NCBI GenBank assembly: GCA_004295245.1
Contig: REAR01000066.1
Span: 1 to 51,144 of the forward strand
Reading direction: 5' to 3'
Source: Sphingobacteriales bacterium
GTDB lineage: Bacteria; Bacteroidota; Bacteroidia; Chitinophagales; Chitinophagaceae
Length of the DNA stretch: 51,144 nucleotides
Made by a program: the position numbers and the translations under genes. Of the stretch, positions 44,313 to 50,059 are shown piece after piece (within the stretch, counting starts at the first letter, position 1; every line of letters begins with the position of its first letter). Below the pieces are notes generated by a model. It made no database searches. It saw only the letters and a list, made by a program, of their open reading frames with translations, and was not told where the DNA came from.

Positions 44313-45596
44313 CTAGCCCTTCTTTACTCTTTTAGGTAAATATGCCATTAAGAAACCCCCGGTTATTATTAAGCATAGGGAAATGATTTCTGCCTGTGTG
44401 GGTTGAAAAGGTAAATTTTCGTACTGTGTGTTCACTCTTATTTTTTCAATAAAGAAACGCTCTAACCCATTTACTAATAAATAAAAACCAAATAAGGTAC
44501 CTGCTACTTTAAACTGTTTACGTAGCAGCCAAATAACAACAAACAAAATAGTACAAACAATTATTTCATATAAAGGCGTAGGAAAAACAGGTATGGGCAG
44601 CATGTAATTGTATTGATCCCAATTAGCAGTTGCCATTTGAATACCATCTCCATTTACATTATGAGGATAGCTATACGCAAAAAACCAATCTGGCAACCAA
44701 GATACCCCGCTAAATGAGATGTGCTGCACCTGAGATAAATCAGTTACAGCATCTCTTAAATAATACGCTTTATGCAGTTGCAAAGCGGCTGAAAAATCTT
44801 GTACGGTGGCGCTACTTAAATTACCCATTGCATCTGCCTGGTAGGCACTATTAATAATACCCCAATCACCATCACCACTAACCTGGCAACCTACTCGGCC
44901 TATGGCATAAGCCAGCATTAAAGCCGGTGCTGCCGCATCATTTAAATGCCAGAAGCCTATTTTGTGGCGTTTTGCATACCACCAAATTGCCAATGCTGCG
45001 CATATTAAACCGCCATAAAAAGTAAGGCCGCTGGCTGAAAATAAATTACCAATAGGGTCTTTTATAAACCGGTCCCAATTTTCAAAGTTGTCAAACAATT
45101 TGGCACCAGCAAAGCCAAATACAGCGGCAAAAATTACAATATCTCCCACCCTGTCGTGCGGCCAAATACGAATGGTCCTTTCCTCGGGCTTACTAAGTTT
45201 TTGCTTATTTTTCTCGTACCATTTTATACCCGCTAATACAAGCCCTAATAAAATGCCTGCAGGCCAACTGCCCTGCGATGAAAATATATAGGATTGCGGA
45301 TCAGTTGTTACAGGGGTATCTGATACCAGCGCACCTAAAAATTTAAACCCAAATAGAAAGCCTATTATAAAGTTTAGTAGTAACTCTCCAAAACCGGCTG
45401 GCTTACCCACGGTAACTTTTTCTTCTTCATACTGCAACAGGCCCTGTTTGCCTTTTCTTCTTAGTTCTGCGGTTAGTACTACGGCAGCAATTATAAAAGC
45501 TAAAGCCACAAAGAAACCAAACGAATTAATAAATTTTAATCCTTCCAGTTTTATATTAAACCAGTCTCTGAATATATAATATAGATTGGGATACAT
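44313..45596 (-). CDS. lgt: prolipoprotein diacylglyceryl transferase
   Basis: Lgt transfers diacylglycerol to the lipobox cysteine of prolipoproteins, the first step of lipoprotein maturation. At 427 residues it is long compared with proteobacterial Lgt, owing to extra loops around residues 55-150 and 245-310. Multiple transmembrane helices are present. Conserved elements are the opening NSFGFFVALAF, ASGLTFYGGLI, the signature AYAIGRVGCQVSGDGDWG (a divergent GRxGxFxNxExxG) and the C-terminal NGLERFFIEKIRVN. It would serve the lipoproteins in this window, for example those at 5539 and 12569. It is an inner-membrane enzyme and appears monocistronic. Confidence 0.9.
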   Translation of the reverse strand: MYPNLYYIFRDWFNIKLEGLKFINSFGFFVALAFIIAAVVLTAELRRKGKQGLLQYEEEKVTVGKPAGFGELLLNFIIGFLFGFKFLGALVSDTPVTTDPQSYIFSSQGSWPAGILLGLVLAGIKWYEKNKQKLSKPEERTIRIWPHDRVGDIVIFAAVFGFAGAKLFDNFENWDRFIKDPIGNLFSASGLTFYGGLICAALAIWWYAKRHKIGFWHLNDAAAPALMLAYAIGRVGCQVSGDGDWGIINSAYQADAMGNLSSATVQDFSAALQLHKAYYLRDAVTDLSQVQHISFSGVSWLPDWFFAYSYPHNVNGDGIQMATANWDQYNYMLPIPVFPTPLYEIIVCTILFVVIWLLRKQFKVAGTLFGFYLLVNGLERFFIEKIRVNTQYENLPFQPTQAEIISLCLIITGGFLMAYLPKRVKKG

Positions 45597-45709
45597 GCTT
45601 GCGTTGAATTTTTAATAGCTGCCGAAGATACAATTTATACTATTTGCGGCAGCTGTCATTTTATAGCACTGCGGTACCGGTAAATAAGCCGCTGAAAATG
45701 GTGTTATGG

Positions 45710-45759
45710 CTGAAGGGTGCGACGCAACGGTGTTGCCAGTTGCACTGCCGCTGGTTACC
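45710..45759 (+). repeat. two-block intergenic repeat, copy 12
   Basis: Core GTGCGACGCAAC at 45717-45728; block GCTGGTTACC at 45750-45759, 21 nt away. It is followed at once by the terminator of the next gene. Confidence 0.8.
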
Positions 45760-45761
45760 AC

Positions 45762-45788
45762 AAAAAAAACCCCGGAAAAACCGGGGCT
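45762..45788 (-). terminator. terminator of the bacilliredoxin gene
   Basis: CCCCGG (45770-45775) and CCGGGG (45781-45786) pair around a five-base loop. In the minus direction they are followed by eight T residues, 25 bp past the stop. Confidence 0.8.
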
Positions 45789-45810
45789 TGATTAAATGAC
45801 CATTTTGTTA

Positions 45811-46224
45811 CTAACAATGCTGGTTAAAAGCTTCAATAAGATTATGCGCTATCATTTGTGCCGGACGACCTTCTATCTGGTGTCTTTCAATAAAGTGCAC
45901 CAATTGCCCATCTTTAAACAAAGCTATAGATGGCGAAGATGGCGGGTAAGGCATTAAATGCTGGCGTAGTTGCTTAACAGCCTCCACATCAAAACCAGCA
46001 AAGCTGGTTGTTAAATGATCGGGCTTTTTTTCTGTATTGGCAACTGCCATTAAAACGCCGGGGCGTGCAGTACCTGCACTGCAACCGCAAACCGAGTTTA
46101 TCATTACTAAGGTGGTTCCTTTTTCTGCCAGTGTGTTTTCTACTGCATCAGAACTTAACAGCTCCTGAAAACCATTGTCTGTTAACTCTTCCTTCATGGG
46201 TTGTACAATTTCTGCTGGATACAT
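45811..46224 (-). CDS. BrxA/BrxB family bacilliredoxin
   Basis: Bacilliredoxins remove bacillithiol from S-bacillithiolated proteins. The 137-residue protein has the characteristic C46-G-C48 active site in INSVCGCSAGTARPG. Other family stretches are MYPAEIVQPM at the start, LMPYPPSSPSIALFKDG and HFIERHQIEGRPA. The length is normal and the protein cytoplasmic. With bshB1 in the same window it supports a bacillithiol redox system. The choice between BrxA and BrxB cannot be made by eye. The gene has its own terminator. Confidence 0.93.
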   Translation of the reverse strand: MYPAEIVQPMKEELTDNGFQELLSSDAVENTLAEKGTTLVMINSVCGCSAGTARPGVLMAVANTEKKPDHLTTSFAGFDVEAVKQLRQHLMPYPPSSPSIALFKDGQLVHFIERHQIEGRPAQMIAHNLIEAFNQHC

Positions 46225-46290
46225 AGTTTTTTATTTTAGCAACGCAAAGTTACCAAAAAAGTTCATTGCTACTTTTTTAGATATAGAAAT

Positions 46291-46336
46291 ACTGAATTAT
46301 TGTCGCACAAATCAATTGCAAACTGAATTATTGTCG
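46291..46336 (+). promoter_or_regulatory. direct repeat upstream of the Hsp20 gene
   Basis: ACTGAATTATTGTCG occurs exactly at 46291-46305 and again at 46322-46336, a 31-bp period close to three helical turns. It lies about 110-155 bp before the Hsp20 start and 65 bp upstream of the divergent bacilliredoxin gene. It may be a pair of regulator-binding sites for either gene. Confidence 0.4.
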
Positions 46337-46444
46337 GCTTTTTTATAACAAACCAGCAACTGCGGCAGAAAAAAAGCTATTGGTATTGCATTTGAAAAAC
46401 ATTATTCGTCAACAAAAATTTTAAAAAAATAAAAAATAAAAACT

Positions 46445-46876
46445 ATGACACTGGTAAGACCTAATTACAAACCTGGTTATGTAAACTTAAATAACCTGTT
46501 AGACAATTTCTTTAGTGAAGCACCTTCTTTATTTGAAAAAAACAGCGCTGCAGTTGCTGCCGTAAACATTGCAGAAACAACAGAGGCCTATCATTTAGAA
46601 TTAAATGCCCCCGGCAGAAATAAAGAAGATTTTGCTATAACCATAGACAATGGTTTGCTTACTATTGGCTTTGAAAACAAAGAAGAAGCTAAAACAGAAA
46701 ATTACAAAACCGTACGCAAAGAGTTTAGTGTGCAAAGTTTTAAGCGCAGCTTTACTATTGATGAAAACATTGATGCCACCGGCATACAAGCCAAGTACGA
46801 AAATGGTTTACTAAAACTGTTATTGCCTAAAAAAGCAACCGTTAAAGAGGCCAGCAAAAGCATTACCATTCAATAA
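46445..46876 (+). CDS. Hsp20/alpha-crystallin small heat-shock protein
   Basis: This 143-residue chaperone holds unfolding proteins for later refolding. An N-terminal arm (about 1-38, NLNNLLDNFFSEAPSLFEK) precedes the alpha-crystallin domain (about 40-130): VNIAETTEAYHLELNAPGRNKEDFAI by pattern, FKRSFTIDENID and the ending AKYENGLLKLLLPKK, containing the family A-x-x-x-NGxL motif. A C-terminal SKSITIQ tail resembles the IxI assembly motif. It is cytoplasmic and stress-induced by family expectation. A direct repeat lies upstream and a terminator 27 bp downstream. Confidence 0.94.
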   Translation: MTLVRPNYKPGYVNLNNLLDNFFSEAPSLFEKNSAAVAAVNIAETTEAYHLELNAPGRNKEDFAITIDNGLLTIGFENKEEAKTENYKTVRKEFSVQSFKRSFTIDENIDATGIQAKYENGLLKLLLPKKATVKEASKSITIQ

Positions 46877-47073: not shown

Positions 47074-48150
47074 ATGTTCTCAGAAAAAGAATTTATACAG
47101 GCAATAGAAACCAACCAAAACATTATTCACAAAGTGTGTAATATGTATTTGGATAAGGCGCAAGAACGAGAAGACCTCTTTCAGGAAATTTTATTGAATG
47201 CCTGGAAGGGCATTCAAAATTTTAAAGGAGATGCAAAATTTTCAACCTGGTTATACCGCGTGGCCTTAAATACAGCCATTACTTTTTACCGTAAAGAAAA
47301 AAGAACCATCAATACCACCAGTTTTGAAGAACAACTAAACAGCGTTGCCGATAGTGAGTACCGGCCCGACGACCAGTTCAATGCCTTGTACAAAGCCATT
47401 GCAGAATTATCAAAAATTGATAAAGCCCTTGTAATGCTGTACCTGGAAGATTACGATTACCAGGAAATAGGAGACATTATTGGCATAACCCCCAATAATG
47501 TGGCGGTAAAAATGAACCGTATTAAAACAAAACTGGATTTAGATAACCTGAAACAAGAGCTAAAAACAAAGCTGGAGGCCACCGGTCATACCCGCAGCCC
47601 GGCACAATTAGAGCAGCTGATAAATGGCAAAAGCCGCTCGGTTATTGGTAAATTAAAACGCAGTATTTTATTTGAACTGCTGTTTACACTTTTGGTAATA
47701 GTAGTTGTTATAATAATTGTACTTGCCAGTAACCGCTATCACTTTCCCGGTCTTAGTGCGTTTATTATAACAGGCTGCCTGGTATTTGGTATTTATGTAT
47801 GGCGCTTGCAACAACGCATACACTTTTATCAAAAAAATGCCGCCTCTGTAAAAGAAAAACTACAGCAGATTATACATATTCTGCAACGGTATACCCGTTT
47901 GTATTTTCAGTTAACTATGATACTGCTGCCCATTGCCTTTATTATGGGTTATGTATTTGCCGCAACAGAAAAAAAACAAGCCGACAACACCAATAATTAT
48001 TCAATATATGGCACCCTGTTTTATATTGCTTTTGCAATAGTATGGAGTGTTTTAATGTATTTTTTTACCAAGTGGTATATTAAAAAATTATATGGCAATT
48101 ACCTGCAACAACTAAAAGATCAGTTAAAAGAATTAGAGAACGGGCAATAG
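47074..48150 (+). CDS. ECF-type sigma factor fused to a four-helix membrane domain
   Basis: Residues 1-152 of this 358-residue protein are a complete ECF sigma factor. Region 2 spans about 15-80, with EDLFQEILLNAWKGI and FSTWLYRVALN. Region 4 spans about 105-152, with YQEIGDIIGITPNNVAVKMNRIK. The frame then continues without a stop into LDLDNLKQELKTKLEA and a hydrophobic domain with helices near 198-219, 224-243, 277-296 and 311-333. That part resembles a membrane protein usually encoded as a separate gene just after such sigma factors, so this looks like a gene fusion. If real, the sigma factor would be membrane-tethered. ATG 47074 is chosen because an earlier in-frame start lies in a repeat. 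Confidence 0.85.
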   Translation: MFSEKEFIQAIETNQNIIHKVCNMYLDKAQEREDLFQEILLNAWKGIQNFKGDAKFSTWLYRVALNTAITFYRKEKRTINTTSFEEQLNSVADSEYRPDDQFNALYKAIAELSKIDKALVMLYLEDYDYQEIGDIIGITPNNVAVKMNRIKTKLDLDNLKQELKTKLEATGHTRSPAQLEQLINGKSRSVIGKLKRSILFELLFTLLVIVVVIIIVLASNRYHFPGLSAFIITGCLVFGIYVWRLQQRIHFYQKNAASVKEKLQQIIHILQRYTRLYFQLTMILLPIAFIMGYVFAATEKKQADNTNNYSIYGTLFYIAFAIVWSVLMYFFTKWYIKKLYGNYLQQLKDQLKELENGQ

Positions 48151-48214: not shown

Positions 48215-49468
48215 ATGAGATGCCCGCAACTACTTGCAGTATTACTTTTACTTATTATTTCCGGCAGCAGCAGGGCACAGCAAGATACACTGCCTGCCAG
48301 TAAGCCTGTAGAAACAGATACTGTTTTACGCATCACCAACCTTAACCCCTATTTTACCTTGCATGTAGACTCTTCTCTACTATACAACCTGGAAATTAAT
48401 AAAGATGAAACCGGCTATTATTGGTTCTTAAAAAATTCTCCCGTTGGGTTAAAAATTAATAAAGACAATGGCATCCTCAGTTTTAAGGCCGATAAATCAT
48501 TCTTTCTCTCCGGTAAATTGAAATACGATGTGGAGTATAAAGTAAGCATTGGTGTGCAAAGCCTTACCAACCCTGCTTTAAAAGCCGATACTTTTTTTAC
48601 CCTGCTATTTTATAATACAGATATTATTGTTTCTAAAATAAAACCCTCTGTAAGCTCTACCCTTTATGCAGATGAAGGAGACACCATCAGCTTTAAAGTG
48701 CAATGCGAGAACGGTAATTTTCCTATAGAAACCATTACCTTTTTTGCCAATACCCCGCTTACCCATTTTACCACCGTAAAAAAATGCGATGAGGATTTTG
48801 TATGGATACCCAATTATGATTTTGTAAAACCAACCGACTCGGGCAAAGTACATATTGTTGCTCTCAGCTTTGTGGGTGCTAATAAATTTCAGGTAAAAGA
48901 TACAGCTACAGTAAAAATTGTTATAAGAGATGCACTTAATTATCCGCTTGCTGTGCAAGATTATAACCTGCTTAACAAAAACATCAACACCTATATTCTG
49001 CAATTGAAATACACATTTCTGCAGTTAGATAAAAGAGTAAAAAAAGTAAAAAACACCCGCACCACTTTTGATATTACCGGTTCCACCACGGCCCTCACCG
49101 GCAGCATTCTGGCTACTTCCAGCGATGCAGGCACCAAAAAAACCGGACAGGTACTGCCCAGCGTAGGCGTTTCTTTAGTGCCCATAAAAGAAGCCGTGGC
49201 CCCGCAAAAAATATACGATCAAAACCAGGCCAGCTCCATCCGCGCCTCTATTAAGCGGTTAGAATATATGCTGCGGGATAATTTACTGGTAGGCGAAAAA
49301 GACCCCAACATCAGCCTCAAAACACAAAAGCTAAAAGACGAGCTGAAGCAAATACAAATTCAGTTAATAGACATACCCGTAGAAATTGCCAATAACATGA
49401 CCGAAGAAGAGCTGAACGAATATTTTAACAGCCCCAGCGTAAATAAAAAATACCGGGTAAAAAAATAA
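48215..49468 (+). CDS. secreted protein with Ig-like region, unknown function
   Basis: This 417-residue protein has a signal peptide (about 1-21, ending SSRAQQ). Two beta-rich regions follow at about 35-130 and 135-235, which read like immunoglobulin or cadherin-like folds: YYWFLKNSPVGLKINKDNG resembles a putative-Ig pattern. A linker rich in Thr, Ser and Ala (about 280-315) precedes a helical, charged C-terminus with SIKRLEYMLRDNLL and LKDELKQIQIQLID, possibly coiled coil. I do not recognise the family. It lies 64 bp after the sigma/membrane fusion on the same strand and may belong to the same transcript. Confidence 0.7.
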   Translation: MRCPQLLAVLLLLIISGSSRAQQDTLPASKPVETDTVLRITNLNPYFTLHVDSSLLYNLEINKDETGYYWFLKNSPVGLKINKDNGILSFKADKSFFLSGKLKYDVEYKVSIGVQSLTNPALKADTFFTLLFYNTDIIVSKIKPSVSSTLYADEGDTISFKVQCENGNFPIETITFFANTPLTHFTTVKKCDEDFVWIPNYDFVKPTDSGKVHIVALSFVGANKFQVKDTATVKIVIRDALNYPLAVQDYNLLNKNINTYILQLKYTFLQLDKRVKKVKNTRTTFDITGSTTALTGSILATSSDAGTKKTGQVLPSVGVSLVPIKEAVAPQKIYDQNQASSIRASIKRLEYMLRDNLLVGEKDPNISLKTQKLKDELKQIQIQLIDIPVEIANNMTEEELNEYFNSPSVNKKYRVKK

Positions 49469-49630: not shown

Positions 49631-50059
49631 TTATTGATGAGCTATACAAGATTCTTCATAGCTCCATTTAGATAAGTTTTCGCCTTTAACTAACAAGTCT
49701 TTTATTATTGAGTAGTCAACTTCAGGCGGTATATCAACAGATATTAAAATAGTAACATCGCTAATTTCTGAATCACACCCTAATTTTTTTAACTCCTCTC
49801 TAAGCGGAGCTACACTTTCTTTATCTGATAAAATAACTCTGACGGTACTATGGCCGGACTCCTGAACTAACCCTGTCACAAAAAGTTCTCCATCTCTGTT
49901 TTCTACTTTAACTATATCTCCTAAAGAATATTCAGGGGCATAAAACAAAATATTGTCCAATTGAAAATTCTCGCCTACAGGAGCTGCCCATGCGCTTTCG
50001 ATTCCATATTCATTTTCAGGAGTATTATAATGCTCAAATAATATTTTTACATGCTCCAT
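49631..50059 (-). CDS. DUF4265 domain-containing protein
   Basis: This 142-residue soluble protein matches the DUF4265 pattern: IESAWAAPVGENFQLDNILFYA by order, a SLGDIVKVENRDGEL strand pair, GHSTVRVILSD and a final YSIIKDLLVKGENLSKWSYEE. The function of the family is unknown, though members often occur in accessory regions and near toxin-type loci. It starts at ATG 50059, 53 bp from the GTTGTTGGTA repeat cluster that begins at 50112. It converges on the unknown secreted-protein gene. Confidence 0.82.
   Translation of the reverse strand: MEHVKILFEHYNTPENEYGIESAWAAPVGENFQLDNILFYAPEYSLGDIVKVENRDGELFVTGLVQESGHSTVRVILSDKESVAPLREELKKLGCDSEISDVTILISVDIPPEVDYSIIKDLLVKGENLSKWSYEESCIAHQ

Follow-up and report, generated by a model that had tools for sequence, protein, structure and literature searches.

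The fused gene and its two halves

The window analysed here is a whole contig of 51,144 nt from an assembly of 269 contigs that is 96% complete. Translation of 47074–48150 on the forward strand gave a single uninterrupted frame of 358 codons plus stop. Its N-terminal part, up to about residue 154, is an ECF sigma factor, and past the end of this sigma factor the frame goes on via L-DLDNLKQELK for about 200 more residues. The features of the gene are listed in Table 1.

Pfam analysis matched both sigma regions above the Pfam cut-off (Sigma70_r2, E 9e-17; Sigma70_r4_2, E 1e-9), with a short linker between them, and the sigma part also matched TIGR02937 of NCBIfam (E 8.5e-27). The membrane half had four hydrophobic peaks at residues 198–216, 224–242, 280–298 and 313–331 (Kyte-Doolittle means of 1.9–3.4). 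Judged on the assembly, a sigma factor and a transmembrane part are thereby encoded in one uninterrupted frame, which confirmed the initial annotation of an ECF sigma factor joined in frame to a four-helix membrane domain. The open frame is not a product of chance, because of the number of open codons past the sigma factor and their homology to a conserved protein.

Positive charge in the membrane half favoured a topology with the N-terminal segment, the middle loop and the C terminus in the cytoplasm, and such a position of the N-terminal segment would place the sigma factor on the correct side of the membrane. The distance from the end of the sigma factor to the first hydrophobic peak was only about 43 residues. 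In searches of the window's own assembly (G000), the membrane half was matched once, at the fused gene itself, and no further copy was found; the whole protein had 12 other matches in this genome, all of them more distant sigma factors and none better than E 1.7e-13.

Table 1. Features of the fused gene in the window
Feature	Position	Strand	Basis or remark
Fused gene, ECF sigma factor and four-helix membrane protein	47074..48150	+	Open frame
Sigma region 2, residues 11–78	47104..47307	+	PF04542; structural matches to AlgU/sigmaE
Sigma region 4, residues 103–154	47380..47535	+	PF08281
Junction CTG-GAT, Leu154-Asp155	47533..47538	+	Sigma tail, stop, spacer and ATG at this place in relatives
Four-helix partner without start Met, residues 155–358	47536..48147	+	Alignments A2 and A5; hydrophobic peaks; AlphaFold
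In-frame ATG, Met147, possible separate start of the membrane protein (speculative)	47512..47514	+	

The AlphaFold model of the fused chain, built from 39 aligned rows of which 16 were pairs of relatives read through their TAA stops, had a mean pLDDT of 83.3 and a pTM of 0.51. Confidence was low at residues 77–96 and near the junction (10-residue blocks of 65 and 60); with this pTM and the weak junction, the placement of the domains relative to each other is unreliable, and the model gives no evidence that the membrane half caps the sigma factor. The sigma part structurally matched sigmaE, AlgU, SigH and others, and region 2 was superposed on AlgU and sigmaE with Z of 11.2–12.0 and rmsd of 1.7–2.0 over 78–80 residues.

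When 47530–48147 was modelled alone, the pLDDT was 87.8 and the pTM 0.74, and the model consisted of an N-terminal helix and four long helices. Foldseek found nothing at E <= 0.001 for the membrane half by itself, and comparison of its sequence profile with PDB chains gave five weak matches (best E 0.011). VIA-align of residues 173–358 revealed helical bundles and sensor domains at Z of 9.5–9.8, under the level that is telling for bundles with this tool. The absence of convincing structural matches is no proof of a new fold.

Separate genes in relatives and the sequence at the junction

The membrane half was matched in 95 of the 294 family genomes at E <= 0.001, with a best E of 1.7e-33 in other genomes and with many matches covering nearly the full length. 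Its identity with the 21 other rows of alignment A2 was 21–35%. Full-length homologues were located directly after the same sigma subgroup; the membrane portion is homologous to the downstream gene of relatives, which agreed with the proposal that it is a protein normally made by the next gene.

The wider scan with the sigma alignment gave 568 candidate loci. Among the best 80, the genes were split at 71, no partner was found nearby at 9, and none was fused (L124 was masked at the junction). Fused and split versions had both been proposed for a search among relatives; the split version was thus found and the fused version was not. A further set comprised 71 rows with a strong sigma match besides the window; some of these rows repeat a genome, and L001–L008 and loci without a strong sigma match were left out. 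The sigma stop was located 5–20 residues past the match in all 71 rows, and the membrane partner came directly after the sigma factor in 64 of them (L083 was masked at the junction).

Among the split pairs, 52 differed from one another in sigma sequence, and spacers or overlaps between the genes were seen in them. At 53 of the 80 loci (24 had no fitting ATG or were masked, and 3 of the other 56 had no partner), the partner start lay between -11 and +14 nt from the sigma stop, a spacing typical of coupled partners. The initial annotation had also raised the case that relatives always carry two separate genes with identical flanking codons. Two genes were indeed present wherever both could be found and read, but the flanking codons differed.

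At 16 loci (L089, L105, L107, L116, L121 and 11 others), both genes lie in the same frame and are parted by TAA and a few bases; one TAA was present in 14 and two in 2, and all 16 remain split. Fusion is therefore mutationally near in such pairs, yet it occurred at none of the 80 loci.

The search of the order matched 133 of 396 genomes at E <= 1e-30. Among the matches listed, all that crossed the junction held at least one stop, except the window's own, and rows ending at about residue 155–165 were uninformative on the junction. The search of the class used a profile of the membrane half only (212 positions), which tests fusion through frame length only, and it matched 6 of 395 genomes at E <= 1e-40, the window's own included. 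Genomes G510 and G793, with open_frame_aa values of 377 and 376, were tried as further fusions and rejected, as split genes were found on reading them; this figure seems to read through a stop. The loci of G064 and G292 were also split on reading (G292 has masked bases). The locus of G182 (L082) gave no sigma match, and G049, G156, G109 and G066, with reported frames of 263–481, were left out of the junction reading. No other fused genome was found among the loci and genomes examined.

The genus comprised three genomes, and both congeners (G001 and G002) had split genes. Their sigma sequences were only about 58–61% identical to that of the window, so the fusion, seen in one genome, is without an independent witness. 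From sequence comparison, it looks like a real but one-off event.

In a typical relative, the sigma factor ends with ...MNRIKTKLKEESKKYYQV-stop or similar, followed by a few bases and M-E-L/F-D-E-L-K. The junction of G001 was RLKDLAKKYM-stop-EQK-MELDDLK, with the partner gene running off the contig, and that of G002 was RLKQTTQQYL-stop, one base, MELDEFK. In the window, the corresponding sequence was ...MNRIKTKL-DLDNLKQELK, in which the N-terminal DLDNLK of the membrane partner is kept and its start Met is replaced by Leu. The joint absence of sigma tail, stop, spacer and ATG excluded, by comparison, an overlooked stop or one-base frameshift, the kind of error for which the initial annotation had asked the junction to be checked.

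From the matching Leu codon to the partner ATG, the distance was 39 nt and 31 nt in the two congeners and 29–53 nt in 39 other relatives (pairs scored by motif). The loss was likely 31 or 39 nt in size by the congeners, or 29–53 nt by the other relatives. The Leu codon was CTG in 14 and TTG in another 14 of the 39 relatives, and both codons share TG with ATG; a two-base microhomology deletion is possible.

Conservation, neighbourhood and identity of the partner

When conservation was scored without the window, the 21 other rows shared 38 invariant sigma columns, none of which is altered in the window. The membrane half of these rows has 6 invariant columns, and the window differs at one, the start Met, while retaining the other 5. 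At columns that were at least 90% conserved, the window departs from 5 of 70 in the sigma factor and from 4 of 20 in the membrane half. A like count for the 21 other rows gave 0–9 departures each in both halves, with at least five in the sigma factor in 5 of the 21 rows and at least four in the membrane half in 4 of the 21. The departures of the window are on the high side, yet inside the range of the other rows.

Trees of 60 rows each were constructed by a quick method with midpoint root. The end branch of the window was 0.39 against a median of 0.16 in the sigma tree and 1.12 against 0.38 in the tree of the membrane half, ranking 12 of 60 in both; by root-to-tip distance, longest first, the window ranked 54 of 60 and 60 of 60, respectively. 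These comparisons gave no clear sign of decay in either half. If the fusion is recent, no clear rate change would be expected, whether the protein works or not.

The gene order in many relatives was lgt, a PF06491 gene, HSP20, often a TraB/PrgY/GumN gene, the sigma gene and the four-helix gene. The block of lgt (the gene that we take to be lgt in the window), PF06491 and HSP20 is located at 44313–46876 of the window, and the same block lies beside the sigma system in many Chitinophagaceae. The window's HSP20 was matched in 33 of the 80 loci and its PF06491 protein in 31.

A TraB/PrgY/GumN-family gene with a secreted-looking product was present upstream of the sigma gene in L093 (2104–2988; PF01963, E 4e-56), L170 (1559–2461) and other relatives. 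By the rule used, it stood directly before the sigma gene at 30 of the 80 loci, overlapped the open region of the sigma frame in L096 and L133, and was downstream in L139; it was absent from the stretch covered at 42 loci, and the upstream stretch was too short at 5. This arrangement suggests that the TraB-family gene, the sigma gene and the four-helix gene may form a three-gene system; no link between TraB/GumN and ECF was seen among the literature matches listed. Neither the window nor the matching loci of the congeners (L009 and L010) had a TraB gene between HSP20 and the sigma gene. A TraB gene does occur at a further sigma locus of G002 that is more distant (L011), and a TraB homologue with 32% identity to the L093 protein was found elsewhere in the window's genome (C203).

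Downstream of the fused gene, 48215–49468 encodes a secreted-looking protein of 417 residues, for which no Pfam or PHROGs match and no tblastn match at E <= 1e-5 in the 80 loci were found. A DUF4265 protein (PF14085, E 5e-28) is encoded at 49631–50059 on the reverse strand.

No match to the membrane half of the window's fused gene was obtained in PHROGs, nor above cut-off in Pfam or NCBIfam, and no family matched more than two of the 22 aligned members of the partner family at E <= 0.01. No zinc-finger family was found in residues 155–358 with Pfam or NCBIfam, and these residues contain one Cys, which is too few for a Cys-Cys zinc motif. No class I anti-sigma domain (ASDI) family was matched in the 22 aligned members, and only the short stretch described above is available before the first hydrophobic peak; a remote ASDI homologue might escape such family searches. 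Membrane anti-sigma factors have a short cytoplasmic segment on the N-terminal side of their first helix. Considering such a segment here and the conserved tight linkage, the four-helix protein most likely serves this sigma factor as a membrane partner, probably as its anti-sigma factor.

Origin of the fusion and comparison with known systems

It is reasonably probable that a lineage-specific deletion fused the sigma factor to its four-helix membrane partner, a putative anti-sigma factor or sensor, and that the sigma factor is tethered at the membrane as a result. Such a deletion, a few dozen bases long, would have taken out everything from the short sigma tail and its stop across the spacer to the partner's start codon, and would have joined the sigma factor in frame to the conserved four-helix protein. 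This protein would be the membrane anti-sigma factor or sensor of the sigma factor, and its cytoplasmic N-terminal segment and helices would hold the sigma factor at the inner membrane in a fixed one-to-one ratio. By analogy with other fused ECF sigma factors, the sigma factor may act while tethered, or it may first be freed by a conformational change or by proteolysis. That the product is a working one-protein sensor from membrane to promoter, newly born by such a deletion from a widespread Bacteroidota pair, is put forward tentatively, as a proposal leaning to the doubtful side. If it is true, the birth of a tethered sigma factor has been caught while split relatives are still available for comparison.

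The four-helix protein could instead be a co-transcribed target or a membrane-stress effector, in which case the fusion merely anchors the sigma factor. No anti-sigma family was matched and no convincing likeness to a solved structure was seen, which fits this role; it is nevertheless rather unlikely, given that its gene is closely linked to this sigma subgroup across Bacteroidota and that the N-terminal segment is like that of anti-sigma factors. A real fusion might also be a broken or dispensable allele, with the sigma factor either constantly tethered or constantly free, in a system that is being lost. The fusion was seen in one genome, the lack of fused genes at the 80 loci may mean that fusions do not persist, and neither the fused gene nor its counterparts in the two congeners have beside them the TraB-family gene that commonly accompanies the pair. 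However, neither half is interrupted, nearly all columns that are invariant in relatives are retained, and many split relatives are likewise without an adjacent TraB gene, so that a broken allele appears unlikely.

Free and tethered forms would coexist if translation also started within the gene, at the ATG at 47512 or at the CTG at 47533, the old position of the partner ATG. The ATG is in frame, seven codons before the junction and with AAAA ahead of it, and A-rich sequence lies ahead of the CTG. Met147, however, falls in sigma region 4 of relatives, so its conservation is uninformative on an internal start, and CTG is a weak start codon; internal initiation is quite unlikely. The last alternative is an assembly artefact or rare strain variant, in which the genes are really separate in the population and a short deletion in the contig is either false or rare. 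The assembly is fragmented, no second genome of the species was found among the three genomes of the genus, and about one in three deletions would join both frames by chance. Against this, the loss is located mid-contig and between two domains, the frames are joined, and at most about 2 nt of sequence are shared, while short-read assemblers seldom drop such a stretch where a longer repeat is lacking. This explanation is quite unlikely.

The preferred reading, a deletion that tethered the sigma factor to its partner, has precedents, as fused sigma/anti-sigma chains are already known. According to PMC8999054, IutY of Pseudomonas putida (ECF243) joins a sigma factor to a membrane anti-sigma factor and undergoes processing by Prc and RseP; in ECF48, ECF52 and ECF53 of Actinobacteria (e.g. 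SCO4117), a C-terminal transmembrane extension is thought to be a built-in anti-sigma factor; and ECF41 and ECF56 carry a SnoaL-like C-terminal extension with a regulatory role that is shown (ECF41) or presumed. The fused protein shares with IutY a single chain with an N-terminal ECF sigma factor and a C-terminal membrane part, but IutY belongs to iron-starvation cell-surface signalling, whereas the fused protein has a four-helix partner of an unnamed family. ECF48, ECF52 and ECF53 likewise combine an ECF sigma factor with a C-terminal transmembrane extension, but these are entire groups whose members have one or two helices plus a zinc-finger domain, while the fusion here is an isolated example with four helices and a lone Cys in the extension. 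The likeness to ECF41 and ECF56 lies in having a C-terminal extension on the sigma factor, which is a membrane domain here and SnoaL-like there. The fusion adds a variant with a four-helix partner. The split pairs of Bacteroidota, such as L093 (Sediminibacterium) and L099 (Deminuibacter), have the same two proteins in the same order and on the same strand, but with a stop, spacing and a start codon in place of one frame. Among the literature matches listed, titles and abstract openings held no Bacteroidota ECF fusion and no four-helix anti-sigma factor.

With these precedents, the importance of the fusion depends on whether the fused protein works. The fusion hints that the sigma factor and its four-helix neighbour act together, since their joining was tolerated (or selected) in one lineage. 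Recognised class I anti-sigma factors adjoin 6% of Bacteroidetes ECFs compared with 32% on average, according to PMC7406223, and a candidate family of membrane partners is therefore useful in this phylum.
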